A stretch of 64,000 nt of DNA from an uncultured Candidatus Puniceispirillum sp. (lineage in GTDB: Bacteria > Pseudomonadota > Alphaproteobacteria > Puniceispirillales > Puniceispirillaceae). The notes under the pieces were generated by a model that saw only the letters and a list, made by a program, of their open reading frames with translations, did not search any database and was not told the DNA's origin. Location of the stretch: NCBI GenBank assembly GCA_905182545.1, contig CAJJBY010000005.1, positions 1 to 64,000 of the forward strand. The letters are read 5' to 3'. This document shows positions 1-20,737 of the stretch, piece after piece; the first letter of the stretch is position 1; every line of letters begins with the position of its first letter. A program made the translations under genes and the position numbers.

Positions 1-156
1 ATCAATTTTTAAAATCACCAAGACTAGCTTTGTCACACCAGCGCAATTTGTTATCACAGTTTATTGGTGGGTGTTGTTTCAATAAACGGTCAAAAACTTA
101 AAATTGCTGTTGTTGACAAATTCACGAACGAGTTGGCGCGATAATAAACGAACTGA

Positions 157-669: not shown

Positions 670-726
670 GCTTCCCCCTACAATGAGGGTGTAAGCACAA
701 AAAAGACAAATTCAACACTTTAATAT

Positions 727-745
727 GCTTATGCTAGGCATAAGC
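727..745. promoter_or_regulatory. Inverted repeat upstream of the Pal-like gene
   Basis: GCTTATGC and GCATAAGC form a perfect 8-base inverted repeat with a 3-base centre. It lies in the divergent gap between the 170-aa unknown gene and the Pal-like lipoprotein gene. It could be an operator for either gene or a small hairpin; there is no following T-run, which argues against a terminator. Confidence 0.3.
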
Positions 746-843
746 GCTCAATATGAGCAGTTACCGAGTTGCCATCTCCCAACGTCCTGTCAGTGTGATG
801 TCCAAGTAAAATAGTCATTTCTAGTAAATTAAGTAGTTTAGAT

Positions 844-1353
844 ATGAATTTCCCTGGCGTCAAAAAACACCTGTTCAGTGTGTCTGTGCTCTTTACTGTA
901 GGCTTGGGTGGATGCTCCAACCCCGGATTGAACGGTGAAACCTCATCAGTTATTGGGCGCGTATCGCAAACCAGCCAATCAGACGCATCGAGTGCGTCAA
1001 AACCCGCTGAACACAATCCGTCTCCGCTCCTCGTGCTGACATATTTTGATTTTGACAGTGCTGCGTTAAGCGCTGGGACGACTATGGTTTTGGACAGCGC
1101 AGTCGCTAAATTTGCGAAAAATCCGTCTGCTCGTGTTGTTATTAGTGGGCACGCTGATGAGAGAGGAACGCGAGAATATAATCTGGGCCTTGGACATCTG
1201 AGGGCATCTGCCGTTGCTGATTACATGCTTGCCAAAGGCATAGACGGCTTAAGAATTAAAAAAGTCTCGTATGGCAAAGAGAGGCCATTGCTCAAAGGCT
1301 CAAATGACGAGGCATGGTCAAAAAACAGGAGGGTTGAAATAAATGATGAATGA
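844..1353 (+). CDS. Peptidoglycan-associated lipoprotein (Pal-like, OmpA C-terminal domain)
   Basis: The 169-aa protein begins with a basic, hydrophobic signal sequence ending in a lipobox LGGC, with the lipidated cysteine at residue 24. A Ser-rich linker is followed by an OmpA/Pal domain (about residues 60-168). The domain opens with YFDFDS and carries the peptidoglycan-binding pattern NLGLGHLRASAV and the closing NRRVEI. Such proteins anchor the outer membrane to peptidoglycan, usually as part of Tol-Pal. Here tolB and ybgF are absent, so this is probably an accessory paralogue and not the housekeeping pal. The start ATG has only a weak ribosome site. Its last codons contain the strong ribosome site of the next gene. 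Confidence 0.8.
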   Translation: MNFPGVKKHLFSVSVLFTVGLGGCSNPGLNGETSSVIGRVSQTSQSDASSASKPAEHNPSPLLVLTYFDFDSAALSAGTTMVLDSAVAKFAKNPSARVVISGHADERGTREYNLGLGHLRASAVADYMLAKGIDGLRIKKVSYGKERPLLKGSNDEAWSKNRRVEINDE

Positions 1354-1630
1354 TTTAACTGCTTTTGACCAGGTGCAACGAAATGACTCAGGTCAGCCTG
1401 AAGCATATAAAACTGACCGTGTAAAAAATCGATTTGATAAAGGTGTGGTTGTTTTCAAAAAAGATACCGGGATGGCTTTTGAAGTTTGCAAAACGTCTCA
1501 TGCAAACGGCATTGAACATTTTAATTTACTATGTACGAAACCGGTTCTAGTGTTTATCTTGTCAAAATTTGCACTTGAAAAAGATTATAGTCTCAATGGC
1601 GATCATCCGAGAAAGTTGGCCTGCGAATAG
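1343..1630 (+). CDS. Hypothetical protein, 95 aa, overlapping the Pal-like gene
   Basis: This 95-aa reading frame starts 11 bases before the end of the Pal-like gene. It is preceded by a near-perfect AGGAGGG Shine-Dalgarno (1327-1333), 9 bases from the ATG, which is the best evidence that it is translated and co-expressed with the lipoprotein. The N-terminal half is charged and the C-terminal half has a hydrophobic stretch (LVFILSKFAL) too short to be a clear membrane helix. I recognise no family. A second ATG directly follows the first and could equally be used. Confidence 0.5.
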   Translation: MMNDLTAFDQVQRNDSGQPEAYKTDRVKNRFDKGVVVFKKDTGMAFEVCKTSHANGIEHFNLLCTKPVLVFILSKFALEKDYSLNGDHPRKLACE

Positions 1631-1762
1631 TCAGGCGATTAAGTGAAATGTTGGCTAAATAGAGAACCGGAACCACTATCAATCATACCCTGAATCTATG
1701 CTTTTTCTTGTTTTGCTGATGTAAAAGTGGTCGGATCAGATATCCAATCGGGGGTAATTATT

Positions 1763-2169
1763 GTGAGCGAGGAAAGTCTTAAGAGAGTGTTTGGCGCCGT
1801 TTGGTCGCGCTTTCTAGAGTTTGAAATAACTCGGAGCAAGTTGATATGTGAGTTTGCAGGCAATCCACTTCTGCTCTTATTCTCCAAGTTGTGGCATATC
1901 ACAATCTTACGTTGGTTCAATCAAATGTGGACAACAAAACTTACAGTGAAATTCGTTCGGCTTGGGAGGTGAGTGATGAGTCCCTAGCGAGTGATTGGCC
2001 CCAAAAACTTTCATTTGCCGCTATTGCAGATATAACCGGCATCGATAAAGAGACAGTGAGGCGCTCCGTGAAAAAACTAGAGGAGCAGGGGTGGGTCGCC
2101 ATCGAACAAAAAACTGGAATTAGCTATAATCCGTCAAAGATTAATCAAGACAAGCTTATTGGTGTTTGA
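1763..2169 (+). pseudogene. Winged-helix transcriptional regulator, frameshifted
   Basis: Two overlapping frames together give one protein of the MarR-like winged-helix type common in alphaproteobacteria. The first frame (GTG at 1763) reads VSEESLKRVFGAVWSRFLEF and on to KLICEFAG. The second begins with ALILQVVAYHNLTL and continues through a helix-turn-helix (AAIADITGIDKETVRRSVKK) to a stop at 2169. The switch lies between about 1852 and 1890 and is equivalent to one missing base. Neither frame alone gives a full domain, so this is either a pseudogene or a sequence error. A GTG at 1891 could in principle start a 92-aa protein holding only the DNA-binding half. The regulated target is unknown. 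Confidence 0.55.
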
Positions 2170-2267
2170 ATGAGTGGGAAGTTACTCATCTTGGCCGTCT
2201 GCTAAAACGCTTAAATGATGCGGACAACGCGGGCTAAAGTTTTTCATCCAATATAAGTTTATGTCGT

Positions 2268-2447
2268 TTAGTTTGCAGGACCTGCATCGTCTCTTTTAAA
2301 AATGACATCCACAACATCGTGAAAACTGTCACCGTCATCTAACTTTACATTGGCAATGAATGAATAAAGGTCCATCGCCACCTCTGTTTGAAGACGTTTG
2401 TCAAAGTCTCTTAGGATGTTAGATTTGAGTTTATCATTGAGATTCAT
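2268..2447 (-). CDS. Small hypothetical protein, 59 aa
   Basis: A 59-codon frame runs on the minus strand from ATG at 2447 to TAA at 2268. The protein begins MNLNDKLKSNILRDFDKR and ends FKRDDAGPAN; it is acidic overall, has no membrane segment, and reads as a compact mostly helical protein with evenly spaced hydrophobic residues. A weak purine-rich sequence (GTAGGCAG) precedes the ATG. It fills an otherwise empty gap between two plus-strand genes. Codon use and composition look protein-like, but at this length chance cannot be excluded. No family recognised. Confidence 0.4.
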   Translation of the reverse strand: MNLNDKLKSNILRDFDKRLQTEVAMDLYSFIANVKLDDGDSFHDVVDVIFKRDDAGPAN

Positions 2448-2495
2448 CTGCCTACAATTACTTAATCGGATGAGAAAGGGTTGAGTTAGTAAAAA

Positions 2496-2699
2496 ATGAA
2501 ACCAAAGAAAAACAGAAGAACAAAGTGGACATCTGAAGAAAGAGAGAGGCTCAAAAATCTATTTGAAGAATTTGATGGTGACATCGTTAAAATTTCAACA
2601 GAACTCCGTAGAGGTGAGAGATCTGTTCGTATGAACCTATTCTTTATGGATCTAATTAGTGAGAGTGAAGTGAATAAAAAACTGATTATAGACCGTTAA
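2496..2699 (+). CDS. Small basic protein with Myb/SANT-like or HTH segment, 67 aa
   Basis: The product is short and highly charged. Residues about 8-45 (RTKWTSEERERLKNLFEEFD, then IVKISTEL and RSVRMNLF) resemble a SANT/Myb-like or GcrA-type helix-turn-helix: a W-T-x-E-E-R-x-R-L opening followed by a second and a recognition helix. It is therefore probably a small DNA-binding protein, but it lacks the zinc cysteines of GcrA and is short for that family. The nearest purine-rich ribosome site (AAAGGG) is far from the ATG. It sits in a block of orphan genes near a tRNA, where such small regulators are common in mobile DNA. Confidence 0.45.
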   Translation: MKPKKNRRTKWTSEERERLKNLFEEFDGDIVKISTELRRGERSVRMNLFFMDLISESEVNKKLIIDR

Positions 2700-2864
2700 A
2701 TGTATCCCACAAAACTGCACACTATTATCAAGTTCGAGAACATCGAAGCCATGCGAGCATTTGGCGCTGACAAGGAATTAACAGAAACCCGCAAGCCAGA
2801 CATAGCTGAGGGAACCAGTATATCCATTTTCGCTAGTGCTGGGGACGGATTGCAACCAACTTAG
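2700..2864 (+). pseudogene. Short ORF, possible remnant of a ferredoxin-like (ABM-type) domain
   Basis: An ATG overlapping the preceding stop codon opens a 54-codon frame ending at TAG 2862-2864. The segment IIKFENIEAMRAFGADKELT followed by ETRKPDIAEGTSIS resembles the first half of an antibiotic-biosynthesis-monooxygenase-like ferredoxin fold (strand, helix, strand). It then stops with no second half. It could be a decayed gene or chance; there is no clear ribosome site. Confidence 0.25.
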
Positions 2865-3179
2865 CCGAGACAAGCGTGCCTATCGGCTATTTCACATCGA
2901 CTCCGCGGTGGTTACGATGAGCTAGAAATACTCAATTACTCAAACCATGCTATTTGAACCCACAGGAACTGGCGTCAAGGAGCATCATAAACCCGCCGAA
3001 AATAATATTTTATAACTCGCAAAAACCAGTTTTGCCAATCGACACTATAACGGTTGTGTTCTCATAGGTAAGAATTCTACAGATTTTGGGCGTGATGTTA
3101 TTATTGGACAACGCAAACCTCTAAGATATCGGAATTGCAGAGGTAAGGGTTGTTTCTAAGATACTGTTGATTGCTCGTA
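2865..3179. other. Gene-free stretch, nothing recognised
   Basis: About 315 AT-rich bases between a short remnant ORF and the end of the PhhB pseudogene. I read all six frames by eye and found stops every few codons, no RNA gene, no inverted repeat of note and no recognisable protein fragment. Confidence 0.4.
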
Positions 3180-3495
3180 TTATTTTAATGCTGTGCTTTT
3201 GGCAAAATTGTCGCATTTTTCAGCCAGAATAACATCAAGATTACTGATGCCGCCTTTGGAATGCGTTGTCCATCGCATCTGCACCTTGTTATAAACATTC
3301 GACCATTCGGGATGATGATCCATCTTATCAGCCGCCAAAGCAACCCGTGCAACAAACCCAAAAGCCGCATTGAAATCGCTAAATTGAAACGTTTTTTCAA
3401 GCCCTATGTGATCGTCACTTGTTCGCCAGCCGTCAAGCGTCCCCTATTGCTTTTTCTATAGCATCCTGATTTAATTTTTCAGCTTTTAGTGCCAT
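3180..3495 (-). pseudogene. phhB: Pterin-4a-carbinolamine dehydratase, frameshifted
   Basis: The C-terminal 80 or so codons give a textbook PCD domain: FNAAFGFVARVALAADKMDH directly followed by HPEWSNVYNKVQ and WTTHSKGG, including the DHHP active-site signature. The enzyme recycles 4a-hydroxytetrahydropterin or serves a related pterin role. The first 17 codons (MALKAEKLNQDAIEKAI) read from ATG at 3495 in another frame. Shortening the CCCC run at 3441-3444 (GGGG on the coding strand) by one base joins the two into one normal-length protein of about 105 aa. A GGGAG ribosome site precedes the ATG. This is either a pseudogene or a homopolymer error. No aromatic amino acid hydroxylase lies nearby. 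Confidence 0.8.
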
Positions 3496-3652
3496 GGATA
3501 GTTCTCCCTTCATTCGATGAATTTCACATGATAGTCAATGGGCTGGGTAATGTGCCAGAAACATTCCAAGAGCGATGCATAGTCGTTTTGTTGGCGCACC
3601 GCGACACACCCAACCCGGCATCAGCCGCTTAATTTCCAATTGATCAAGCCCC

Positions 3653-4207
3653 CTAATTACCCTTAAGGGTGTCAAGACGGCTATCTCGCCCACAGCTAAA
3701 GCGATAATATTTATATTTGAATGACCGCTTTTTATAGAAATCTTGATGCTCTTCTCGGACAGGGTAGAAGACGCTCTCAAGTTCAATTGGCACAACAGAG
3801 TTTTTAGGCGCCAGACGCTCCGCTATCAGGCGTTCAGCGTCTGTCTTATAATAAATTGCAGGGCTGTAGGAGCGGCCACGGTCACAAAACTGGCCTTCAC
3901 CATCTTCATAATCAATTGTTGCATAAACATGCCTCACTAATTTTTCATATGAAATGATCTCAGGGTCGTAGACAACTTGTGCTGCTTCCCGGTGATCACC
4001 CCATCTACCGGGTTCGTATCGAGGGTTCGCCGTTGTACCGCCCGTGAAGCCACTAATAACTTCGTTTACGCCACCAAGCTTTTCTGTGTCGGCTTCAGTG
4101 CACCAAAAACACCCCCCCGAATAGGTAAAGGTTTCAGCGGTTACAGCAGTTGGTGCCATGCTGGAAAAGAAAAAAAGTGCTGCCGCGGCAAGGGTAATGT
4201 TTTTCAT
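3653..4207 (-). CDS. msrA: Peptide methionine-S-sulfoxide reductase with signal peptide
   Basis: The 184-aa protein opens with a Sec signal peptide (residues 1-24, ending AVTA) followed at once by the MsrA active-site motif GGCFWC, with catalytic Cys33. Family features continue with SGFTGG, NPRYEPG, EAAQVVYDPEIISYEKL and a distal pair of cysteines (in GQFCDRG and FSCGRD) that can act as resolving residues. It reduces S-methionine sulfoxide in proteins. The signal peptide places it in the periplasm, unlike the usual cytoplasmic MsrA. Length is normal for the family. It is monocistronic, next to the broken phhB gene. Confidence 0.9.
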   Translation of the reverse strand: MKNITLAAAALFFFSSMAPTAVTAETFTYSGGCFWCTEADTEKLGGVNEVISGFTGGTTANPRYEPGRWGDHREAAQVVYDPEIISYEKLVRHVYATIDYEDGEGQFCDRGRSYSPAIYYKTDAERLIAERLAPKNSVVPIELESVFYPVREEHQDFYKKRSFKYKYYRFSCGRDSRLDTLKGN

Positions 4208-4409
4208 GTCCGTATTATCTCATCAGGTGAGCGTTCAAATATCTGTTGGTAATTTAATGCCGTAACTTAGCATAAGAAGAAATGGGCGCACGATACATAA
4301 TCAGTAATAACTTCACCTTTTCCAAATACCGTGTGTTTTATCCTTCTTCTTTTATCAATAAGACTCGGTTACCCTTTCGCGAATGTAGCGCCGATGAGGA
4401 GGCTCAGAA

Positions 4410-5850
4410 ATGGAAAAAAGGCCCGTTAACCAGCTCATATTAATGACTGACGAACACACGAGGAAAGTTCTTGGTTGTTATGGCAATAAGATTGTCAAAA
4501 CCCCCCATATCGACCGTCTTGCGCGTGAGGGCACATTATTTGAAAACGCATATACAAATGTGCCTATTTGCGTGCCAGCCAGAGCATCCTTTGCAACAGG
4601 AGATTATGCGCATCGTTCGCATCATTGGGACAACGCCACACCCTATTTGGGCACACCTAACTCTTGGGGCAACGAGCTACAAAAAGCCGGTATCACAGTG
4701 GGGTCAATTGGCAAACTACATTACCGGAACTCAGATGACGACGTGGGTTTAGATTTTCAAAAAATACCAATGCATGTAGTCAACGGGACTGGTGATGTTC
4801 TGGGCTGCGTTAGGGAACCTTTACCAAAGCGCTGGAAGTCTTTGTCTATGGCTGAAAAGATTGGCCCGGGGGAGACTGACTACAATATTTATGACCGTCA
4901 GGTAGCAACTGAAGCGATAGAGTGGTTAGCCACGGATGGCAAACAAAAGAAACCTTGGGTGCTGTTTGTATCCATGGTAGCACCCCACTTTCCATTGATC
5001 GCACCGCAAGAATTCTACGATCTCTATGACAAGCTTGATCTGATGCCCACAAAACCCCGGGAATCCCCAGAGCATCCTTGGCATCACGCCATGCGAAATT
5101 GTCAAATCATGGATAACTTTACATCAGAGCGGACAAGGGTTGCGCTGGCATCCTATTACGGGCTTGTGACGTTCATTGATAATTTGATTGGCAAAATTTT
5201 AGGAGCGGTTGAACAAAACGGTCTTAGTGAAAACACGCAGATTTTCTACCTTAGCGATCACGGTGATAATATTGGTGAACGCGACTTTTGGGGCAAATCA
5301 AACTTCTATGAAGAATCTGTTGGCATACCCTGCATTATAAAAGGTCCGGGAATACCCGAGGGAAAAACCCTGAAAACACCAGTTTCCCTGAGTTGATGTC
5401 TACCCAACGATACTAAAAACCGCGGGTATCAACCCAGAGGCAAAGCCGGGTACGTCACTCGTCGATCTGGCAAACGCTGAGGATAATTTTGAGAGATTGG
5501 TTTTTTCTGAATATCACGCCGTGGGATCAGCAACCGGTGCTTTTATGATCCGCAAAGGACAGTGGAAATTGATCTATTATGTATCGATGCAGCCACAATT
5601 ATTCAATTTAGCTGATGACCCTGAAGAATTGCATGATCTTGGTGCCGAGCCAAAGCACGAGGGCATACGCATACAGTTAGAGGTTGAACTCCGGTCAATA
5701 TGTAACCCAGAAGCAGTAGATGCCATGGCTAAGGCTGATCAGATGGCTATCGTGATCGCAAATGGCGGCATAGAGGCCGTTGTCGCAAAAGGCGGGTTTG
5801 GCGCCACGCCTCCTCCCGGAGTTAATGCAGAATTCGCGAACGGGAAATAA
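4410..5850 (+). pseudogene. Sulfatase (choline-sulfatase-like), one-base frameshift
   Basis: The first frame (4410-5396) has the sulfatase metal site (LMTDEHTRKVLGCYG), the formylglycine motif CVPARASFATG, with the cysteine that is modified, and the distal LSDHGDNIGERDFWGKSNF. The frame ends early at TGA 5394-5396. The next frame continues immediately with VDVYPTILKTAGINPEAKPG and GQWKLIYYVSMQPQLFNLAD, a standard sulfatase C-terminus, to TAA at 5850. Removing base 5391 restores one protein of about 480 aa. The best match in layout is the choline-sulfatase/iduronate-sulfatase group, cytoplasmic here as no signal peptide is seen. A GAGG ribosome site precedes the ATG. Substrate is not determinable from sequence alone. 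Confidence 0.8.
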
Positions 5851-5864
5851 CAGATTAGATTGTT

Positions 5865-5930
5865 TGCTTCAGCGCAACCCAACAATTTCTTAACCTGTAT
5901 CGCTGAAAGTTTATTTATGTTTGTTGACAT
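5865..5930 (-). pseudogene. N-terminal remnant of a tyrosine (phage-type) integrase
   Basis: On the minus strand an ATG at 5930 reads MSTNINKLSAIQVKKLLG, which matches the typical opening of tRNA-targeting integrases with a DUF4102 arm (K-L-[TS]-x-x-x-V-K-K-L). The similarity stops after about 22 codons, where the frame runs on meaninglessly across the sulfatase gene tail. It begins about 150 bases from the 3' end of tRNA-Ser and points away from it, exactly where an integrase gene sits in a tRNA-integrated island. The bases between contain GGGAC/GGACG repeats that might be arm sites. The match is short, so the call is moderate. Confidence 0.45.
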
Positions 5931-6080
5931 CTGCCTACGTCCACATTCCGTCCCACATTATATTTTGGATTGGAGTGGATGTCAGCAGACAAAAATAAAA
6001 TACTGTCTTATATAATCCCATATAATCAGCTACTAAAATGGGATTTAAGAATTAATATTAGTTAATAATTTGGGGGATTA

Positions 6081-6170
6081 TGGCGGAGGGACGGGGATTC
6101 GAACCCCGGAGGGGCGTTAACCCCAACACGCTTTCCAGGCGTGCGCCTTAAACCACTCGGCCATCCCTCC
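6081..6170 (-). tRNA. tRNA-Ser (anticodon GGA)
   Basis: The minus strand folds as a class II tRNA. It has a 7-bp acceptor stem (GGAGGGA with TCCCTCC), a D-loop GTGGTTTAAGG, an anticodon stem-loop centred on CTGGAAA with anticodon GGA, a long variable arm, a T-arm GGGTTCGAATCCC, discriminator G and an encoded CCA at 6081-6083. The long variable arm and anticodon assign serine (UCC/UCU codons). Its 3' end faces the decayed accessory block to the left, consistent with use as an integration site. Confidence 0.95.
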
Positions 6171-6458
6171 TGTTATTCTGCTAACAAATAACCGTATAAT
6201 GCGTGTCCATATTTGCTCGCAATTTAACAGGCTTGGCTCATCATGTAAACTAGCCGGAACGGCCTCAAGCAAGCGTTTCCAAGCATCCATCCCAAAATGT
6301 TGGGTCTCAACATTACATACGCTTGCAAGGAGATCGCCAAAATCCAACAGAATCCAACATTTGCCATCACTAGAATGTACAAACCCACTGATAAAAAAAT
6401 ACTACCACTAAATAATTTTCTTGTTTCGCGTCACAGTTATGAACATGATGAGTTAATT

Positions 6459-6830
6459 ATGAGATATTTTCTCCACATTATCGCTATCCTTGCTGGTTTG
6501 GTAGCCTGCTATGCTATTTGGCAAGATCTGACCAGCAGCTACAGCGCCAGCGCGCCGCTTGGCAGATTGTGGTATCTATACAGCCCAACGACATTGCAGG
6601 CCAGCGAGTCCATTATCAGCCGCTATATTGACCCGTGCGGACTGATTGCAGCATTAGATTGTTCACCCTTTTTATGGCACCCAATTATTGCCACCATTTT
6701 AGGCTGGCCAGCCGCCTTGGTTATGATCGGATTCAGCGTAATATTCTGGTGGGTTGGCAGCTTGTTTGGCAGAAATTCAATGCGCCCTAGAAAAGCCGCT
6801 CGCTCACTTAGACGACAGGGTGAAAAATAG
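6459..6830 (+). CDS. Small inner-membrane protein, unknown function, 123 aa
   Basis: Starting at ATG 6459, the protein opens with a membrane helix (YFLHIIAILAGLVACYAIW). A periplasm-sized loop with two cysteines (PCG and DCS) follows, then a second helix (IIATILGWPAALVMIGFSVI and on) and a basic tail (RPRKAARSLRRQ). The in-frame upstream extension to 6297 crosses AT-rich noncoding-looking sequence, so the internal ATG is preferred. The paired loop cysteines recall redox membrane proteins, but no CxxC motif is present and I do not assign a function. It is convergent with lepA. Confidence 0.6.
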   Translation: MRYFLHIIAILAGLVACYAIWQDLTSSYSASAPLGRLWYLYSPTTLQASESIISRYIDPCGLIAALDCSPFLWHPIIATILGWPAALVMIGFSVIFWWVGSLFGRNSMRPRKAARSLRRQGEK

Positions 6831-10645: not shown

Positions 10646-11443
10646 CTATCGGCCTTGCCATTGCGGTTTGCGCTTTTCAAGAAAGGCGCGAACCCCTTCG
10701 GCAAAATCGGCGCTTACATAGCTTTTCTCGATCAAATCATCATCATCCGGCAATGGGGCGGCTTGGCGTAAACGCCGCAGCCCCTCAAGACTGGCCTGAA
10801 TGGTCAGCGGCGCCATTTGTTTCATCCGTTCGGCAAGCTGGTTGGCGCGTGCCATCAAACTATCCTGATTGGGTAAAACCTCATGCACAAATCCGCTTGT
10901 CAAAAGCGCCTCAGCATCCAGCAATTCAGCAGTTAAAATCATATGGGCAACGCGTGATTCGCCGAATAATGCCGTTAAACGCCGAAGATTCGATACGGCC
11001 AGGCAATTGCCCAATGTACGGGCAATCGGCATGCCAGCAACCGCCGCCGCGCTGGCAATGCGAACATGCGCTGCTGCTGCAATCACCAGCCCGCCACCCG
11101 TAACCGCGCCATGAAGCGCGGCAATAACCGGAACATGGCAGGATTCGATCTGGCTAATAACGGCTTCGACCGTTGCTTCATAGCGCAACCCATCTTCGGT
11201 CGAGTCAAAAGCGGTGAATTGGCCAATATCAGTGCCCGCGGCAAAGGCTTTATCACCTGCCCCTGCAATGACGATGGCTTTAATATGATCAGCATCATCG
11301 GCAGTGCCTGCAAGGGCGCATAGCTTGGCCAATTCTTCATACATGCCAAAGGTAAGCGCATTGCGTGCCTGCGGCCGGTTCAAGGTCACATGCGCAATGT
11401 CATCGTCAATTCGGACAAGCAGTTCGCCATCAGTGGCAGTCAT
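10646..11443 (-). CDS. Enoyl-CoA hydratase/isomerase family protein
   Basis: This 265-aa crotonase-superfamily protein has the oxyanion-hole segments AFAAGTDIGQF and HGAVTGGGLVIAAAAHVRIA, and the C-terminal helix ending in EGVRAFLEKRKPQW. Members hydrate or isomerise enoyl-CoA esters. The usual hydratase glutamate region reads TGGGLV at the first conserved position, so exact chemistry is uncertain. The gene starts 12 bases after the stop of a truncated TRAP dctM, so it was probably the last gene of a transporter operon that has since been lost. Confidence 0.85.
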   Translation of the reverse strand: MTATDGELLVRIDDDIAHVTLNRPQARNALTFGMYEELAKLCALAGTADDADHIKAIVIAGAGDKAFAAGTDIGQFTAFDSTEDGLRYEATVEAVISQIESCHVPVIAALHGAVTGGGLVIAAAAHVRIASAAAVAGMPIARTLGNCLAVSNLRRLTALFGESRVAHMILTAELLDAEALLTSGFVHEVLPNQDSLMARANQLAERMKQMAPLTIQASLEGLRRLRQAAPLPDDDDLIEKSYVSADFAEGVRAFLEKRKPQWQGR

Positions 11444-11455
11444 GTCAAATTCCTT

Positions 11456-11638
11456 CTAGCGATAGAACAACTCGACCAAGAATATTGGAATGGCCGGAAC
11501 ATAGGTACAGAAAAGAAGCACCCCAACCAAGACAGTAATAAAGGGTAAATTGACCCTTGTCACTTCCCAGATATTCACCCGCGCAATCGAACAGGCGGTA
11601 ATCAAAACCGATGCCACTGAGGGCGCAGACGTATTATG
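11456..11638 (-). pseudogene. C-terminal remnant of a TRAP transporter large permease (DctM)
   Basis: About 60 codons read SVASVLITACSIARVNIWEV, then TRVNLPFITVLVGVLLFCTY, then VPAIPIFLVELFYR and a stop. This is the characteristic last transmembrane pair of DctM/SiaT-type permeases (S-I-A-x-V-x-I-x-x-V-x-R-x-x-L-P-F, then V-P-A). Everything upstream is missing; the homology stops near 11638, where AT-rich unrelated DNA begins. It lies immediately upstream of the enoyl-CoA hydratase gene. It marks the left edge of the inserted cassette described below. Confidence 0.75.
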
Positions 11639-11660
11639 TCGTTGGGGGCAACGGATGGGG

Positions 11661-11945
11661 TTAGTTGATTGCTACGCCGTCCACTTCAGGACGTGTTGGT
11701 GGATGAAATAACCAATTACTAGTAATGCCAAACCTACCAACAAGGATACTCTTAGCAAATATAATGGTGTTTGCACTATTTTGCGTTTCAATTTGACTAA
11801 TCACGAGTGCGAGGATGCTTGCCATCAGAAGCGCTATAATAAAACTAGCCAAATCTGGGCGTTTTCCTGCTAATCAACTTGCAAAATCTATTATACCACC
11901 AGCAACAGCTGCAATTAGTAAAATTACCATCCTAACTCCCCTCAT
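11661..11945 (-). pseudogene. Degenerate small membrane protein (in-frame stop plus frameshift)
   Basis: From ATG 11945 the frame reads a hydrophobic helix (MVILLIAAVAGGIIDFAS), meets an in-frame TGA at 11874-11876 and continues LAGKRPDLASFIIALLMASI. Near the end a one-base shift converts an improbable tail into LVGLALLVIGYFIHQHVLKW, TA and a stop at 11672-11674. Restoring both lesions gives a normal three-helix membrane protein of about 90 aa. Two independent defects argue for real decay. Family unknown. Confidence 0.4.
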
Positions 11946-11981
11946 CTTATAAGCAACAACAGCCTAATCAAACGCCACAAT

Positions 11982-11994
11982 TCTCTTAAAGAGA
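11982..11994. promoter_or_regulatory. 13-base palindrome upstream of the enolase-superfamily gene
   Basis: TCTCTT-A-AAGAGA is a perfect odd palindrome about 210 bases upstream of the first gene of the TRAP cassette. It could be an operator, but its distance from the gene and AT-rich surroundings make this weak. The rest of 11946-12202 shows nothing else I can name. Confidence 0.2.
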
Positions 11995-12202
11995 TTGTCC
12001 ATAAAAATGGGTTTTGCAATAGACTGTTCAAAAAGAAGCTCAAATAATTATTGAAGAGTGAAAAAATAACTACAACACCAAAACACCACACAGTGCATTG
12101 GGCTATCATTCACCATAAACCGAAGCCATCATATCGATAGACCAAAGAAAAATAATGCAATAGCGTTAGAACTAATTTGATCAGGTGAGACTAGGTACTG
12201 CC

Positions 12203-13339
12203 ATGACGACATATCCCAGAATTTGTGGAATTGAAGCAATTCCAATAGAGATAAAGGGCAAAAGAGAGTTTGCGATTTCAGAAGGACAAACAAGAACGCA
12301 CAAATCTGTTATTGTTAGAATTGTCACTGAAGATCCAAATATTGACGGCGTGGCGGAAATCGTTTGCGCACCGCCAGGAAAGCCAGAAGAAATTCAACAC
12401 GAAATATATGGTGCCTTAATAGCTATAATTAAAAGTTCGCTAATTGGCATATCTGCAGAGGATACAGTGTCTGCACAGAGAGTAATTAACGAGCAAATCA
12501 AGGGTAAAGTGTGGACCAAAGGTGGGCTGAATGTCGCATTGAACGATCTTCGAGCAAAAGCTCTCGGAGTTTCGTGCATGTCGATGCTCGGTATACATAG
12601 CGAGGATAACAAAGTTCCAGTTATAGGAACAGTAATTGGAATAATGCACCCAGATCAAATGGCCAAGCGTGCAGAGGAGTTGCTTGCCCTTGGCTTTAGC
12701 ACTTTGAAGATAAAAGTTGGTAAGGATGTTAGTTCAGACTTTGAAAGAGTTAGTTGTGTACGAGAGGCTGTCGGCGACAGTGTCAGCATTCGAGTTGACG
12801 CCAATGATCATTACTCACCGGAAGAAGCTATTAAATTCATAAATAAGATAGAGCACTTAAACATAGAGCATGTTGAGCAGCCTATTTCCAGATACGACAT
12901 TCTGGGGATGAGTGAGGTCAAAAGGTCTGTTCGTGTTCCACTAATGACAGATGACATGGTTTCGACTCCATTCGATGCGATGAATGTTATTCGTCTCAAT
13001 GCAGCTGATCGAGTCAAAGTAAAGGTCACAAAGCACGGCCTCGATGGAGCCATCCAAATAATTTCTATGCTCTCTGCCGCAGGCAAGAGGGCCGTTTTAG
13101 GGCATGTTTTTGAAACAGGCTTAGCCGCGGTTGCCGAAGCACACCTTGCCATGCTTTTTCCGAACATTATTGGTCCACACGAAATTGGATCAATGGAACC
13201 TCTTGGGATCGACGATAATATTCTAGTAGAGAACCCTTATTGTAATCAGGGCTTCATAACAATTCCAAAAGGATTGGGCCTAGGAACAAATGTTAATTGG
13301 GATCGAGTGGAACACTATAGAATAAATTTATCATATTAA
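12203..13339 (+). CDS. Mandelate racemase/muconate lactonizing enzyme family protein (enolase superfamily)
   Basis: The 378-aa product has the N-terminal capping domain and a TIM barrel. Visible catalytic residues are the K-x-K of TLKIKVGKD, the metal ligands in RVDANDHY, HVEQPISRYD and MTDDMV, and the distal lysine of VKVKVTKHG. This set matches the MLE subgroup (cycloisomerase, OSBS or dipeptide-epimerase-like) and not the mandelate racemase His/Asp dyad. The substrate is unknown. The open frame extends to a GTG at 12185, but the ATG at 12203 has an AGG ribosome site and a conventional N-terminus. It heads the cassette with the methyltransferase, TRAP transporter and isomerase, so it probably acts on the imported acid. 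Confidence 0.85.
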   Translation: MTTYPRICGIEAIPIEIKGKREFAISEGQTRTHKSVIVRIVTEDPNIDGVAEIVCAPPGKPEEIQHEIYGALIAIIKSSLIGISAEDTVSAQRVINEQIKGKVWTKGGLNVALNDLRAKALGVSCMSMLGIHSEDNKVPVIGTVIGIMHPDQMAKRAEELLALGFSTLKIKVGKDVSSDFERVSCVREAVGDSVSIRVDANDHYSPEEAIKFINKIEHLNIEHVEQPISRYDILGMSEVKRSVRVPLMTDDMVSTPFDAMNVIRLNAADRVKVKVTKHGLDGAIQIISMLSAAGKRAVLGHVFETGLAAVAEAHLAMLFPNIIGPHEIGSMEPLGIDDNILVENPYCNQGFITIPKGLGLGTNVNWDRVEHYRINLSY

Positions 13340-13351
13340 AAATTTTGGAGA

Positions 13352-14167
13352 ATGGTCATGCATGACCCCAATTTGGCCGCTGCGCAGGCCTACGAAGAAG
13401 CGTTGGTAACAACTTTATTTGGGCCATGGGCAAGGCGTGCTGTAGAGATCGCGAATCCATTACCTGGAGAAATTATACTTGATCTTGCTTGCGGCACAGG
13501 TATTGGACTTAGGCTTATGTCACCGTTAGTTGGCAAATTTGGTAAAATAATTTCAGTTGATAATGACCCTGCGATGGTTAGTGTTGCAAGGCAGCTTTAC
13601 GAAACAATTGATAATAATCATAAAGCGAATACAGAGTGGTTTGATTGTGGGGCAGAATCTTTGGCGTTGGGTCCAAATGTTCTTGATTTGTGCACATTGT
13701 TTCAAGGCCCAAATTTTTTATCAGACCCCCAAAAAGTGCTAAAAGATGTTCTATTTTCGCTTAAACCCAGCGGCCGATTGGTCGGAAGTACTTGGGGGAG
13801 GATAGAAGAAAACAAAGGTCATTACGCCATAGCTACAGCATTGGAGAGGCTTGGCTTCCAACCTGCATTAAAACCATTTTCTTTTGGCGATACTGACAAA
13901 CTAAAGGGCGTATTCACCAGCTCAGGGTTTGTTATTGAGACAATTTTAACAGAGCAAAAAATGATAAATTTTCGTTCAGTGAAAGATTTTGTTTCAGGCG
14001 TCGCTGCTGGAGCTCCAGCCACTAGACATGCCATTTCACAATTAGATGGAAATACTTATGAAACTTTTTTTGAAATGGTAGAAGAACTGCTCTCTGACTA
14101 TTCAAGTACAAACAGTGTGGCATTACCGACGCAGGCACATATTGTGTTGGCCGTGCCAGCAGCGTAA
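13352..14167 (+). CDS. Class I SAM-dependent methyltransferase
   Basis: The protein of 271 aa carries the SAM-binding motif I ILDLACGTGIGL, then ISVDNDPAMVSVARQ as motif II and a post-motif region LDLCTLFQGPNFLSDP. This layout is that of Methyltransf_11/25 enzymes. The substrate is not evident. The ATG is 12 bases after the enolase-superfamily gene with a TTTGGAG ribosome site, so the two are co-transcribed. A second in-frame ATG at 13358 is possible. A methyltransferase in a TRAP uptake cassette is unusual and could modify the transported acid or a breakdown product. Confidence 0.8.
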   Translation: MVMHDPNLAAAQAYEEALVTTLFGPWARRAVEIANPLPGEIILDLACGTGIGLRLMSPLVGKFGKIISVDNDPAMVSVARQLYETIDNNHKANTEWFDCGAESLALGPNVLDLCTLFQGPNFLSDPQKVLKDVLFSLKPSGRLVGSTWGRIEENKGHYAIATALERLGFQPALKPFSFGDTDKLKGVFTSSGFVIETILTEQKMINFRSVKDFVSGVAAGAPATRHAISQLDGNTYETFFEMVEELLSDYSSTNSVALPTQAHIVLAVPAA

Positions 14168-14187
14168 AATCCAGTAACACAACTGCT

Positions 14188-14220
14188 TGACCTGTTGACA
14201 TTATTGTATGCAACAGGTCA
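14188..14220. promoter_or_regulatory. Perfect 10-base inverted repeat upstream of dctP
   Basis: TGACCTGTTG (14188-14197) and CAACAGGTCA (14211-14220) are exact inverted copies 13 bases apart, lying between the methyltransferase stop and the dctP ribosome site. There is no T-run after the second arm. A dimeric regulator operator, or a stem-loop shaping dctP mRNA, both fit. Confidence 0.45.
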
Positions 14221-14259
14221 TGATTTGTGCGCAAAAACAATTTTTGGGAGGAATTGACA

Positions 14260-15249
14260 ATGCGTATAGATAAAAATTTACTTGTGGCATCAGTTTTGAC
14301 TTCGTTCATTTGGGCAACTGGCGCAAACGCAGACGCGCTTAAAATCAAAATGTCTGTTGAAAGCACACCAGGTGCTTCAACTCAATATATGTTGGCTTCG
14401 TTTCGAGATGCTTTAAAGGCAGAAATGGGTGACGCAGTTGAGATTGACTATTTTGATAGCGGCACACTTGGAGACGAGATAGTCCACATGCAGCAGGTTA
14501 GGACTGGTCAGTTAGACGTCATTCCCATCGGCTCTGACGCAGTACAACTTGATAAAAAATTTGCAGTATTTGATATACCCTTTTTGTTCTCTTCAAGGGA
14601 GCAGGTATCAAACCTTTTAGACGGGCCTATCGGCAGCGAATTAGATAAATCATTTCAGAGTAACGCAGGTCTGAAAGTTTTGGGATTTGGGGAAATTGGC
14701 TTTCGCCAAATAACTAATAACGTTCGCCCAATTGTAAAGCCTGATGACCTGAAAGGGCTAAAGCTCAGAACTCCAGGAAGTAAGACACGAATTATGTCGT
14801 TCAAAATGCTCGGCGCCTCCCCAATCAAGATGAACATGGGTGAGATATATTTAGCTCTGCAACAAGGAGTTATTGATGGCCAGGAAAACCCTTATGGGAA
14901 TATCGTCAGCAAATCATGGTATGAGGTTCAAAAATTTATCTCTGTGTCACGTCATGTTTACACGCCAATAACTTTTGTTATGAATCTAAAACGTTATAAC
15001 TCGCTCACTCAAGATCAAAAGGACAAGGTGCACCGCGCTGCTAGAACCGCAGTTCAAATGAGCAGAGATTATGGTGAAAAGAACGATGCCACATTAGAGG
15101 CAAAAATCCGTAAAGAAGCTCCAAATGTCAAGTTTAATAACATTGACGCAGCAGCATTTCAGGCTGCATCGAAACCAATCGCTAAAAAAATTGGTGAGAT
15201 TGCAGGAACGGACTTTACAGCAAAATTTGTTGCTGCCGCAACAAACTAA
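14260..15249 (+). CDS. TRAP transporter solute-binding protein (DctP family)
   Basis: From ATG 14260 (GGGAGG ribosome site 8 bases upstream) the 329-aa protein has a 24-residue signal peptide ending GANA. A DctP fold follows, with signature segments PGASTQYM, DYFDSGTLG, KPDDLKGLKLRTPG, IYLALQQGVIDGQENPYGN and a final helix. It binds an organic acid in the periplasm and hands it to the DctQM permease encoded downstream. DctP proteins usually use a conserved Arg for the carboxylate; KLRTPGS provides it. Ligand is unknown. A strong terminator-like hairpin separates it from dctQ. Confidence 0.93.
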   Translation: MRIDKNLLVASVLTSFIWATGANADALKIKMSVESTPGASTQYMLASFRDALKAEMGDAVEIDYFDSGTLGDEIVHMQQVRTGQLDVIPIGSDAVQLDKKFAVFDIPFLFSSREQVSNLLDGPIGSELDKSFQSNAGLKVLGFGEIGFRQITNNVRPIVKPDDLKGLKLRTPGSKTRIMSFKMLGASPIKMNMGEIYLALQQGVIDGQENPYGNIVSKSWYEVQKFISVSRHVYTPITFVMNLKRYNSLTQDQKDKVHRAARTAVQMSRDYGEKNDATLEAKIRKEAPNVKFNNIDAAAFQAASKPIAKKIGEIAGTDFTAKFVAAATN

Positions 15250-15253
15250 AAAA

Positions 15254-15287
15254 AAGCAGCGCCTTAACAGGCGCTGCTTCCCTTTTT
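15254..15287 (+). terminator. Hairpin terminator/attenuator between dctP and dctQ
   Basis: AAGCAGCGCC and GGCGCTGCTT form a perfect 10-bp GC-rich stem with a 6-base loop (TTAACA), followed by CCCTTTTT. This is a good intrinsic terminator 4 bases after dctP. Because dctQM continue on the same strand without an obvious new promoter, it probably lets only part of the transcripts through, giving more binding protein than permease. Confidence 0.85.
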
Positions 15288-15335
15288 ACAAGCGTTAACG
15301 TTTCTTGAATTTTGACATTAATTTTGGAGCCTTTT

Positions 15336-15902
15336 TTGAAAGATTTGTCTGAAAAAATTGATGCTGCAAACAGAAAAATGGAGCTTCTTGATCCAGATGA
15401 GAGCGCAGGCCTCGCGGACAAATGTGTAAACCGAGTGGTGGAGGCTGTTGGAGTTTCTGTACTTGTTATGATCGTGGTCGTTATTTTTGCCAACGCCTTT
15501 AGCCGCTATGTCCTAAATTATAGCTTTTCTTGGGCTGAAGAGTTGGTTCAGATGTCAATGCCATGGCTTGCCATGACAGGTGTTTTTTTGTCAGTGCGTC
15601 GTGGAACAATGATCAAAATAGACTTTTTTTTCGAAAAAATACCGCTCCGTTATCAGCCAATTATCGCTTACTTTGGTTATTCACTTAACATATTAATTTT
15701 GCTCAGCATGGCGATTGTATCACTTGAGTTTGTATTTCTTTTTGGTGGTGACGAAGCTTTGTATGTTTCTGTCCCTACTGGGTTCTCTACATCTGCATTA
15801 GTTTGGGGCATGGTTGGTGCGGCGATGGCATATTTCGCGGAATTTTTTCGCGTTTGGAAGCTTAGAAATTCTGAAAAAATGTGTGGTGGAGCAAAAAAAT
15901 GA
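15336..15902 (+). CDS. TRAP transporter small permease subunit (DctQ)
   Basis: The 188-aa protein has four membrane helices, with the typical DctQ centre NAFSRYVLNYSFSWAEELVQ and the following WLAMTG. I prefer the TTG at 15336 because GGAG lies 6 bases upstream; an in-frame TTG at 15312 lies too close to the terminator and lacks a ribosome site. Its stop overlaps the dctM start (ATGA), indicating translational coupling. It forms the membrane complex with DctM. Confidence 0.88.
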   Translation: MKDLSEKIDAANRKMELLDPDESAGLADKCVNRVVEAVGVSVLVMIVVVIFANAFSRYVLNYSFSWAEELVQMSMPWLAMTGVFLSVRRGTMIKIDFFFEKIPLRYQPIIAYFGYSLNILILLSMAIVSLEFVFLFGGDEALYVSVPTGFSTSALVWGMVGAAMAYFAEFFRVWKLRNSEKMCGGAKK

Positions 15903-17188
15903 CGCCTTTAATTGGTGCTGGAATCTCAATTTTTGTGATCTGTTTTCTACTTGTGCTAAGAGTTCCAATGTTGGTCTCAGTCATGGCCGGCGTATTCTCC
16001 GGAATATATTTTTCTGATGCTTGGGCGATCAGTTTACCGCAAACAATGATGTCGGGCATGGGAAGGTTTGTTTTGATTGCTTTGCCGCTGTTTGTCTTGG
16101 CTGGAGGGCTTATGAATGCAGGGGGCATTTCGGGCAGATTGTTTGATTTTGCACGTTCTTTGGTTGGTTCTCTAAGGGGAGGGCTTGCCCATGTCAATGT
16201 CGTAACAAGTATGTTTTTTGGCGGGATGATAGGCTCCTCCACAGCTGATTTGGCCGGCACGGGCTCAATAGTCATCCCAGCAATGAAAGAAGCAAAATGG
16301 GGTCGCATTATCTCTGCTGCCCTAACTGCTTCTTCTGCTGGCATTGGCCCGCTGATTCCTCCAAGTTCGCCAATGATACTATATTCAGCCGTAACTGGCG
16401 TTTCACTTGGTGCACTTTTTTTGGCTGGTTTGATTCCTGGCTTGCTTCTTGGCCTTAGTCAAATGCTCGTAGTTGCATATTTGGCGAGGAAAAAGGGTTG
16501 GTTGCCATTTTCAGCTTTCCACCTTGATGATGTATGGCGTTCAGGAAAACGAGCAGTGTTGGCCTTTGGTGTACCGCTTATCATAGTTGGTGGGATGGTT
16601 TTGGGTGTTTTCACACCGTCAGAGGCGGGGGCTTTTGCTGTTGTATATGCATTTTTGATTTCAGCATTTATTTTTAGATCACTAACTTTTTCTGCGCTTT
16701 ACAGAGTTCTAGTAAACTCCGTTCAATTGTCTGGGGAATTGCTAGTTATCGTAGGCCTGTCTTTCGCACTTGGAGCTGGGCTTACTAATGCACATGTTCC
16801 TGACTTTCTTGTAAGAATAATAGACACAGTAGTTTTTGTAGACAGTGAGTATCTGAGGATTTTTGCACTGGTATTGCTTGCCATAGTGGCGGGCATGATA
16901 TTGGACCCACTTATTCCGGTGCTGTTACCTATAATACTTCCAACTCTTTTAGCCTTTGACGTTGATCTGATTCACTTCGGGGTGCTCATGGTGATTACAG
17001 TGGTTATTGGACAGGTTACACCGCCAATGGCTATTGCGCTTATAATCGCTGGTAGGATTGCCGATGTAGACCAAATCCGAGTCCTGAGGGCGAACACACC
17101 ATTTTTTATTGGAATTGTGGTTTTTTTACTAATTTTGATTGCTGTGCCTGGGCTCGCAACATGGCTGCCAGAAATTGCTCGGCAATAG
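15899..17188 (+). CDS. TRAP transporter large permease subunit (DctM)
   Basis: This is a 429-aa, about 12-helix protein. It has the DctM hallmarks GMGRFVLIALPLFVLAGGLM, FGGMIGSSTADLAGTGSI, ASSAGIGPLIPPSSPMILYS, GVFTPSEAGAFAVVYA and the terminal TPPMAIALIIAGRIADV. It carries out Na+-coupled uptake of the ligand delivered by DctP. Start ATG overlaps the dctQ stop and has a GGTGGAG ribosome site. It is complete, unlike the dctM remnant at 11456-11638, to which it is related but not identical. Confidence 0.93.
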   Translation: MTPLIGAGISIFVICFLLVLRVPMLVSVMAGVFSGIYFSDAWAISLPQTMMSGMGRFVLIALPLFVLAGGLMNAGGISGRLFDFARSLVGSLRGGLAHVNVVTSMFFGGMIGSSTADLAGTGSIVIPAMKEAKWGRIISAALTASSAGIGPLIPPSSPMILYSAVTGVSLGALFLAGLIPGLLLGLSQMLVVAYLARKKGWLPFSAFHLDDVWRSGKRAVLAFGVPLIIVGGMVLGVFTPSEAGAFAVVYAFLISAFIFRSLTFSALYRVLVNSVQLSGELLVIVGLSFALGAGLTNAHVPDFLVRIIDTVVFVDSEYLRIFALVLLAIVAGMILDPLIPVLLPIILPTLLAFDVDLIHFGVLMVITVVIGQVTPPMAIALIIAGRIADVDQIRVLRANTPFFIGIVVFLLILIAVPGLATWLPEIARQ

Positions 17189-17213
17189 CCAGCTTATCAG
17201 AGGAGTTTAGTTA

Positions 17214-18014
17214 ATGAAAAATAGAATTGGTGTGGATGTGGGGAGAAAGCTCTCAGTAGAGAATGCGATTGCTTGGGCATCTGAAAATGATGTGAAATAT
17301 ATTGATTGCCAGATTGATGTAGAGCCCAACTCACTTTACTCTTTTGATGGCTCCCGTTGTGAGAATATTAAGCAGGGTTGTGAGTCTAATAATATTGTTT
17401 TGGGCCTTCACACCTTATCATCAGTCAACGTTGCGGAGTTTTCGCCATTTGTTGGCGAAGCCGTCGATACCTATCTCAAAGCATATGTGGATGCGGCAAC
17501 CCGACTAAACGCAGATTGGGTTGTTGTTCATGCAGGTTACCATTTTACTGATGATTACAAGATTCGGCAACAAGCCGCATTGGAACGTTTGCAAAGAATA
17601 GTAGAATATGCTGAAAAAAATGACGTTTTGCTCTTACTTGAAAACACCAATTGGGAACCAGATCGAGCTGAGGTTCATTACTTCAACTACAGTCTTGAAG
17701 AATTAAACTATTTTATGGAGAAGATAGAGTCCCCTCACCTTGGATGGTCATTTACCATAAACCATGCAACTCTCGTTCCTGAGGGAATCGAAGGCTTTGT
17801 CAAGCATGGTCCTACAGACAGACTGGGTGAAGTGCGAATGGCTGACAATAACGGTGAATATGAATTACATATGCAACCGGGCACAGGTATCATCGATTGG
17901 AAAAAAATGTTTAATCGCCTCGAGGCAACAGGGTACGATGGCCATTATATGAATGCATTTGGCTCGCTTGATGATATGCTTATAGGAAGAGAATATCAGG
18001 TTAGTGTAATGTGA
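17214..18014 (+). CDS. Sugar phosphate isomerase/epimerase-like TIM-barrel protein
   Basis: The 266-aa protein belongs to the xylose-isomerase-like TIM-barrel (AP endonuclease 2) fold. Recognisable parts are DWVVVHAGYHF, LLLLENTNWEPDR, a HLGWSFTINHA strand that carries metal or substrate residues, and the end segment GIIDWKKMFNRLEATGYDGH. Such enzymes isomerise or epimerise sugars, inosose or hydroxypyruvate, or have lyase roles. The gene follows dctM by 25 bases with AGAGGAG before its ATG, so it closes the TRAP operon and probably acts on the imported compound. Exact reaction unknown. Confidence 0.75.
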   Translation: MKNRIGVDVGRKLSVENAIAWASENDVKYIDCQIDVEPNSLYSFDGSRCENIKQGCESNNIVLGLHTLSSVNVAEFSPFVGEAVDTYLKAYVDAATRLNADWVVVHAGYHFTDDYKIRQQAALERLQRIVEYAEKNDVLLLLENTNWEPDRAEVHYFNYSLEELNYFMEKIESPHLGWSFTINHATLVPEGIEGFVKHGPTDRLGEVRMADNNGEYELHMQPGTGIIDWKKMFNRLEATGYDGHYMNAFGSLDDMLIGREYQVSVM

Positions 18015-18057
18015 TCTTAATATATAAAAAAGCGCATCTCTTTTTAGCCATGTCAAA

Positions 18058-19315
18058 TCAATTCTTGGTCTTGCTGACTTTAATGGTCTTTATTGAGTTA
18101 CCTCTCCGTTTCACGATCCGAAACCAGGTTTCATGAAAATAGAACTCCTGATCAGAGCTTGGGATTGTCCGGCTTTCAAACAACACTAGTCCAGCCACTG
18201 TTACTGCGTCTTTATCCGGCAAATGCCAGCCCAGGGCGCGGTTTAAGTCACGGACGGTTATATTGCCATCAACCAAGCCATGATCCATCTGCCTGTGCGC
18301 TAAGACCCGCCAAGCCGATATCATGCTCGTCATCAATATCACCGACGATTTCTTCCAAAATATCTTCCAATGTGACAATGCCTCTAAAATCGCCATATTC
18401 ATCGACCACAACAGCAAAATGCTCTCGCCGTGACCGGAATGCCTGAAGCTGGTCAAATAGCGATGTTGTTTCCGGGATGAAATAGGCATCGCTGGCAATA
18501 TTTTGTACAGCTTCAGGTAGGATCATAACAGTTTCCGCTTTGCCAACAGCGCGCAACAAATCTCTCACATGCAGCACCCCAACAATATTATCTGATTTTC
18601 CTGAAAATACCGGGTGCCGTGTATGCGGTGAATTCAGCACATAACGCAAAATATCTTCGGGTTGATCATCAGCATTAATTATGCTTACGGCCGCACGATG
18701 TGTCATAACAGCTTCGACCGAAATATGACTCAGATCAAGAATAGACGAAAGCATGGCTATGTGTTCACGCTCATAAGCATTGTCATCTCTGCCTTGCAAT
18801 TCAATCAACCCCCGTAATTCTTCCTCATGGTTTTCATTAGAATCTGGGTTTGGGCGGATAATTTGGGTGGTCAGTAGATTAATCCCAACCGATAACGGGC
18901 TGAGAGCGCGAACCACCACTTGTAATATTGGGGCAATTCGCAAGGCGTAGCTATCAGCATATTTAAAGGCGTAGGTTTTTGGCAAAACTTCGGCAAACAC
19001 CACAAGCAAAACTGTCATGCCAATCGTTGCCCAGACCAGACCACCTTCACCAAACAAGGCAATAGCAAAGCTCGTAGCGAGGGCCGACCCCAAAACATTG
19101 ACAGCATTATTGCCAATCAGGATAGACCCAATCAGCCCTTCCCGATCGGCGCGCAGCTTTTCGACAACTTTAGCGCGCCTATTGCCTTGATTGGCAAGCT
19201 GGCGCATGCGCGCATCCGACACCGCGGTCAGCGCTGTTTCTGCGCTTGAAAAGAGTGCTGAGGCCACAATCAGCAATACTAAAGTTAGCGCTAACAGCCA
19301 AAGGCTAGACAGCAT
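18058..19315 (-). pseudogene. CorC/HlyC-family CNNM-like membrane protein, one-base frameshift
   Basis: The N-terminal frame (348 aa) contains the DUF21/CNNM membrane domain (SSAETALTAVSDARM, SILIGNNAVNVLGSALATSF), then two CBS domains (AVMTHRAAVS through EYGDFRGIVTLEDILEEIVG). It then ends prematurely. The adjacent frame continues at once with VDGNITVRDLNRALGWHLPD and ends EFYFHETWFRIVKRRG, the CorC_HlyC transporter-associated domain. Deleting one G at about 18273-18274 gives one normal 418-aa protein. Family members are implicated in Mg2+/Co2+ transport. In many alphaproteobacteria this gene follows aroK-aroB, and an aroB fragment indeed lies directly upstream. Confidence 0.85.
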
Positions 19316-19475
19316 CGAATCCTCTCCACCGAAATTTTACCAAAACAGCTTCAGGCACATAACCATGCACAAAAGCATCGCCAACCGCGCGTGCCAGAAC
19401 AAAATGCTTGCCCCCTTTTGCGGGTCTTCTTGTTATCGCTAATATGGCCGAGTAAAACATCAACTAGCGTGAGCC
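19305..19475 (-). pseudogene. aroB: C-terminal remnant of 3-dehydroquinate synthase
   Basis: Between the aminotransferase stop and the corC start the minus strand reads LVDVLLGHISDNKKTRK. After a one-base slip in a C5T4 run (19411-19419) it continues GGKHFVLARAVGDAFV and HGYVPEAVL. This is the conserved AroB tail (D-x-L-L-x-H-M-x-x-D-K-K, then G-x-x-x-F-V-L-A-R-x-I-G-x-A-F-V). The frame stops at 19305-19307, overlapping the corC ATG. The first 85 percent of the gene and all of aroK are missing, apparently replaced by the aminotransferase gene. The shikimate pathway would need another aroB elsewhere. Confidence 0.65.
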
Positions 19476-19477
19476 TT

Positions 19478-20650
19478 TTAGTCGCCTTTCAGCATATTCA
19501 TGGCGGCGTCAACACCACCTTTTTGATGTGGAATATTGGCAAGTGACAATCCCATCTCAACACCACTTAATGTGCCAAGGAGCATAAGGTCATTAAAGTC
19601 ACCCAAATGCCCAATCCGGAACACCTTGCCAGCAAGTTTGGCCAAGCCATTGCCAAGTGACATGTTGAAATTCTTTAAGACGCCCGCGCGGAATGCATCG
19701 GCATCATGCCCATCTGGCAATAAAACCGCGGTCAAGGCGCTCGAATAATCCTTTGGCTCCTGACACAGAACCTCAAGACCCCATGCCTGCACAGCCTTGC
19801 GCGTTGCGGCGGCGTGCCGTTCATGTCGTTTAAACACATTATCCAGCCCTTCTTCATGAAGCATATCAATCGCTTCAGCCAAGCCGTAAAGAAGGTTGGT
19901 TGCCGGGGTGAACGGGAATGCGCCATCCTTATTTGCCGCAATCTGTTCTTCCCAATCCCAGTAGCTGCGGCGCATACCGCCTTTGCTAGCAACGGCTAGC
20001 GCTTTTTCCGACACTGCATTAAAAGAAAGTCCCGGTGGCAGCATCAGGCCTTTTTGTGAGCCAGCCACGGTTACATCGACGCCCCATTCATCATGCCGAA
20101 AATCAATCGAGGCAAGTGACGAAATTGTGTCAGCAAGCAAAAGCGCATTATGACCTGCATTATTCATCGCCAAGCGCACTTCATTAACGCGCGATGTTGA
20201 TCCGGTCGAGGTTTCGTTATGGACAATACAAACCGCCTTGATCTTATTTTCCGTATCAGCGCGAAGCCGGTCTTCCACCTGTTGCGGGTCAACACCGCGG
20301 CGCCAATCGGTTGCCAAAAATTCGGTCTCAAGACCCAAGCGGGACGCCATTTTATGCCAAAGCGAGGCGAAATGCCCCGTTTCAACCATCAGCACTAGAT
20401 CGCCCTCTTGCAAGGTATTCACCAAGGCCGATTCCCATGCGCCCGTGCCTGATGCAGGGTAGATCACCGCATGGCTATCAGTCTTGAAAATCGTTTTCAT
20501 ACCAGCCAGACATTTTGTCCCAATTTCGGCAAACTGCGGGCCGCGATGGTCAATGGTCGGATAGTCCATCGCACGAAGCACCCTATCAGGCACATTTGTA
20601 GGGCCGGGAATTTGGAGGAAATGACGGCCAGCGGCATGGGGTGTAGGCAT
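19478..20650 (-). CDS. Serine-glyoxylate/alanine-glyoxylate type aminotransferase (class V)
   Basis: The 390-aa PLP enzyme starts HFLQIPGPTNVPDRVLRAMD and has YPASGTGAWESALVN, HNETSTGS, ADTISSLASIDF and the PLP lysine in GSQKGLMLPPG. These match the serine-glyoxylate and alanine-glyoxylate aminotransferase group. The reaction converts glyoxylate to glycine, usually with serine giving hydroxypyruvate. I start at ATG 20650, with GGAG upstream; a TTG five codons earlier is also in frame. It is divergent from the FAD/Fe-S dehydrogenase gene across a 130-base gap containing GntR-like operator repeats, so the two are probably co-regulated. Confidence 0.88.
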   Translation of the reverse strand: MPTPHAAGRHFLQIPGPTNVPDRVLRAMDYPTIDHRGPQFAEIGTKCLAGMKTIFKTDSHAVIYPASGTGAWESALVNTLQEGDLVLMVETGHFASLWHKMASRLGLETEFLATDWRRGVDPQQVEDRLRADTENKIKAVCIVHNETSTGSTSRVNEVRLAMNNAGHNALLLADTISSLASIDFRHDEWGVDVTVAGSQKGLMLPPGLSFNAVSEKALAVASKGGMRRSYWDWEEQIAANKDGAFPFTPATNLLYGLAEAIDMLHEEGLDNVFKRHERHAAATRKAVQAWGLEVLCQEPKDYSSALTAVLLPDGHDADAFRAGVLKNFNMSLGNGLAKLAGKVFRIGHLGDFNDLMLLGTLSGVEMGLSLANIPHQKGGVDAAMNMLKGD

Positions 20651-20737
20651 TGAATTGGTCTCCAATCAGATGCGCGGTATCGTTTTTAATTGATAGTATC
20701 TCTACGACCATTAATTTGGTTGAATGTTACTTCTATT

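Follow-up and report, generated by a model that had tools for sequence, protein, structure and literature searches.

A broken aroB–corC fragment, probably carried in with a TRAP transporter cluster from a related species, in an uncultured Candidatus Puniceispirillum genome

Results

The window, which is the whole stretch of 64,000 nucleotides that was analyzed (contig CAJJBY010000005.1 of assembly GCA_905182545.1, here C5), contains a site bounded on the left by a gene of the enoyl-CoA hydratase family (10646–11443, minus strand) and on the right by a class V aminotransferase gene (19478–20665, minus strand), whose place is conserved among congeners. Adjacent to the hydratase gene lies dctM′ (11456–11635, minus strand), approximately the last 55–59 codons of an older TRAP operon; 50 of 59 residues are identical to DctM of the congener G003, and DNA homology with G003 stops at position 11625. 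The presence of this tail indicates that a TRAP operon once occupied the site. A presumably acquired cluster (12185–18014, plus strand) encodes an enolase-superfamily enzyme, a methyltransferase, DctP, DctQ, DctM, and a TIM-barrel isomerase, with a G+C content of 42.7% versus 50–51% for the flanks. Pfam scans of four of the cluster products revealed no integrase or transposase; DctQ and DctM were named from the ORF listing alone and were judged in this respect from ORF lists. The left spacer of the site (11640–12184, about 0.5 kb) has a G+C content of 38.6% and no assigned gene. Neither this spacer (taken as 11600–12184) nor the corresponding spacer of the congener G002 (locus L072, 5941–6480) matches any of the other loci compared.

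Between the isomerase and aminotransferase genes is a 1.37 kb fragment, aroB′–corC′ (18097–19469, 47.9% G+C), with aroB′ at one end. The fragment is collinear with the 3′ end of aroB plus corC of G002, with 84% nucleotide identity. The corC′ portion (18097–19315, minus strand) retains CNNM, CBS, and CorC_HlyC domains, but it carries a frameshift near 18275 and has lost approximately 11 of the native last codons. Pfam places CNNM and CBS in the frame 18269–19315 and CorC_HlyC in the frame 18058–18498. Native C-termini read LRLWA(K/S) or IRLWAK in eight native loci from seven genomes (L038 and L012 both belong to G004), and the end that replaces them in the window reads KTIKVSKTKN. The isomerase end meets the 3′ end of corC′ in a junction at 18015–18106, with no strand assigned, and a tail similar to this KTIKV replacement occurs on contig C2 of G002.

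The aroB′ portion (19305–19469, minus strand) covers roughly the final 54 codons of the 3-dehydroquinate synthase gene and contains indels that break the frame. When the minus-strand frame 19305–19463 (52 amino acids) is compared with the C-terminus of AroB from G002, 25 of 41 residues are identical (E 2e-14); the match to the genome's own AroB is weaker (15 of 33 residues, E 1e-7). At the DNA level, the 3′ end of G002 aroB aligns to 19305–19469 with 80% identity over 167 alignment columns (blastn E 9e-37), and the global score of 205.5 compares with 40.5 for the best of 300 mononucleotide shuffles. This alignment contains three indels, one of 1 nt and two of 2 nt, and approximately 18 further AroB-like codons lie upstream of the frame 19305–19463 in a different frame. 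A Pfam scan of the window fragment returned no match at E 0.1, which is expected because the piece is so short; the full-length AroB on contig C7 of the same genome has PF01761 and PF24621, both of which are missing from the window fragment. The end of aroB overlaps the start of corC, as it does in the native locus. The AroB tail at 19305–19469 is a genuine, broken gene fragment, combining above-chance homology to the AroB C-terminus with a disrupted reading frame. The original prediction that an AroB tail stands in the native position ahead of corC is borne out by the alignments with the AroB C-termini of G002 and of the genome itself.

It had also been proposed that aroK and aroB were lost from this genome or relocated, and a whole-genome search for other copies had been called for. 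The genome comprises 2.0 Mb in 13 contigs and is 98.4% complete. Genome-wide, one AroB-family match and one shikimate kinase match were found, both without stops and adjacent to each other on C7. They are followed there by a full corC, with neighbors that agree with those of G002 in the ORF lists, and the aroK–aroB–corC region of C7 is 92.6–95.3% identical to the four closest relatives. The claim of loss or relocation therefore falls. The native Puniceispirillum locus has the same gene order and the same aroB/corC overlap as the window piece, but it is full length and intact elsewhere in the genome, whereas the piece is not. Because an intact aroK–aroB–corC exists elsewhere and both genes of the piece are cut and frameshifted, aroB′–corC′ has no shikimate role here, and it is most likely now decaying.

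The hydratase–aminotransferase site was compared in 10 congeners (a further genome, G010, lacks this aminotransferase). A TRAP operon occupies the site in three, a short spacer of 8–98 bp in six, and the acquired cluster in one (loci L073–L078 and L080–L082). The order in G003 is hydratase, dctM, dctQ, dctP (run of N), and aminotransferase; in G012 and G007, the dctP/dctQ side is visible up to the contig ends. The 8–98 bp lie between aligned flanks in G004, G006, G008, G009, G013, and G014. The short spacers of G008 and G004 keep dctM end sequence, which indicates that the TRAP operon was lost in these genomes. The congeners that have both flanks on one contig carry the aminotransferase gene beside the same hydratase gene with no aroB between them, so that the proposed replacement of the aroB body by the aminotransferase gene is contradicted. 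This is one Puniceispirillum site at which closely related species have kept, lost, or exchanged TRAP transporter genes.

Of 16 genomes of the genus, two have the isomerase: G000, which carries the window, and G002. Contig C2 of G002 contains the same cluster with the same aminotransferase gene adjoining, in inverted orientation, with 79% nucleotide identity over window positions 12197–18151. The contig begins with 69 bp identical to the native corC end of G002, followed by a similar replacement tail and then the isomerase gene. Only these 69 bp of the second corC copy are visible because the contig ends there, and the hydratase contig of G002 (C34) stops just beyond the hydratase gene. The occurrence of the corC/isomerase junction in two separate assemblies argues against a chimera. 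The low-G+C TRAP cluster of G002 spans positions 1–6467 of locus L072, where the contig ends inside the second corC copy.

The relationships of corC′ suggest where the fragment originated. The corC′ product is 90% identical in amino acid sequence to that of G002, versus 81% (76% in nucleotides) to that of the C7 copy in its own genome. When 41 genomes were searched with corC′, two long copies of this kind were found only in G000 (100% and 81%). A third match, in G015, was rejected as a single corC split across two contig ends. A 51-residue piece that is 53% identical to corC′ lies at a contig start in G012 (C26, 4–156), besides the main corC of that genome. The corC tree of 19 sequences covered the window copy, the C7 copy, 13 congeners (G012 as a partial sequence), and four family outgroups; G011, which has no such copy, G015, whose copy is split, and other family and order members fall outside it. 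The tree joins the window corC′ with G002 with an ultrafast bootstrap of 100, and the C7 copy groups with G003, G005, G007, G008, and G012. These data indicate that the aroB′–corC′ piece is a newcomer derived from the aroB–corC of another lineage. The window and G002 genes differ at 23, 18, and 116 sites in codon positions 1, 2, and 3, respectively, and at 35 amino acids over 347 codons; G002 and G001 differ at 22, 9, and 130 sites and at 17 amino acids. This substitution pattern fits a copy that was long constrained and relaxed later.

Discussion

Our analysis makes it very likely that a cluster from a G002-like Puniceispirillum species (SAR116) arrived at the site of an older TRAP operon, carrying with it 1.37 kb of the aroB–corC of the donor lineage. 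In the donor, a G002-like lineage, the cluster would have adjoined a corC–aroB copy. The incoming DNA, probably a single segment comprising the aroB′–corC′ flank and the cluster, would have been placed at the former position of the older operon, with the enoyl-CoA hydratase gene on one side and the aminotransferase gene on the other, and aroB would have been cut where the incoming DNA ended. By eye, a few bases at about 19461–19469 are common to the window, the aroB side, and the spacer of relatives, and recombination via microhomology at the aroB′ end is possible. The older operon would have been lost in the same event or earlier; its absence from most congeners makes deletion ahead of the cluster's arrival possible. 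For the reversed cluster of G002, an additional inversion or an independent insertion has to be assumed. With only 79% identity between the cluster and that of G002, either the transfer took place some time ago or the donor belonged to another species. The scrap of a housekeeping locus would thus record where the acquired cluster came from.

The donor search covered genomes that have the isomerase (52–72% identical) and were also searched for corC. None of these genomes has the cluster beside a complete aroB–corC; the isomerase and corC lie on different contigs in five of five (G016, G018, G019, G022, and G024), and the donor arrangement is therefore unseen. G042, G044, G047, G048, and G052 also have the isomerase and lay outside the corC search. 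The isomerase had no match in a scan of viral contigs.

Replacement flexible genomic islands are known in aquatic prokaryotes, as described in the available part of Lopez-Perez et al. (2014, PMC4033161). The likeness to such islands, as that part presents them, is that related genomes carry different genes at a single chromosomal position, and the relatives compared here do so between one pair of flanking genes. The site holds one of two distinct TRAP systems or is empty. The islands in that part of the text typically encode exposed cell structures and are exchanged through homologous recombination, whereas the window cluster is a transporter cluster with a remnant of a core locus unrelated to it at one edge. 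The available part of PMC8547437 makes no mention of aroB, TRAP, flexible, or genomic island. A literature search over titles and abstract openings returned nothing on the aroB′–corC′ fragment or the site, which is weak evidence of absence.

The aroB′–corC′ piece could also be retained as a homology arm that aids recombination of the cluster between congeners, an idea that overlaps with arrival from a G002-like species and is not exclusive of it. Such an arm would assist transfer and inversion of the TRAP cluster among Puniceispirillum species, and gene conversion from native corC would keep it fresh in some of them, such as G002. The corC-tail/isomerase junction is indeed present in two species, and the G002 copy matches native corC at all 69 visible bp, the pattern expected from recent copying or gene conversion. 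However, neither known copy of the cluster lies at the native aroB–corC, the window copy is decaying, and the isomerase is confined to 2 of 16 genus genomes. We consider this role, in retention as in the movement and reversal of the cluster, to be improbable.

Duplication of the genome's own aroB–corC followed by decay would account for two copies in one genome. However, the window copy is 84% identical in nucleotides to G002 versus 76% to the C7 copy, and the tree joins it to G002 with a support of 100; these identities and the tree lead us to reject own-genome duplication, which is very improbable.

There is a similarly small chance that C5 was binned in error from another SAR116 organism. 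The estimated contamination of the genome is 4.48%, which is compatible with such an error, but in the stretches compared, the flanks on C5 and the aroK–aroB–corC region on C7 show similar levels of identity to each of the relatives, whether close or distant. Over aligned lengths of 2.4–16 kb, the identities of the C5 right flank and the C7 region, respectively, are 91.0 and 92.6% for G003, 93.6 and 95.0% for G007, 95.3 and 95.3% for G008, and 93.5 and 95.0% for G012. The corresponding values are 80.3 and 79.7% for G004, 80.5 and 79.5% for G009, 73.7 and 72.7% for G002, and 75.4 and 75.1% for G013. The C5 left flank is 92% identical to G003 and G008 and 79% identical to G004. The agreement between C5 and C7 does not support contamination, which appears unlikely as the source of the contig.

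The least credible reading, that the native aroKB locus once stood at the window site and was then displaced by relocation or loss, draws on the native aroB–corC order and overlap kept in the remnant, but it is rejected on the intact aroK–aroB of C7 in its native context, the lack of aroB at this site in congeners, and a corC′ phylogeny that belongs to another lineage. Arrival of a foreign cluster with its aroB–corC flank is probably a case of ordinary genome turnover rather than loss of the shikimate pathway, and this distinction prevents a false claim of such a loss.

Elsewhere in the window, a gene at 4410–5850 (plus strand), which we take to be sulfatase-like, is divided between two frames, 4410–5396 and 5497–5850. 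Its DNA aligns to G004 as one stretch over 4428–5835, and the gene may be frameshifted here.
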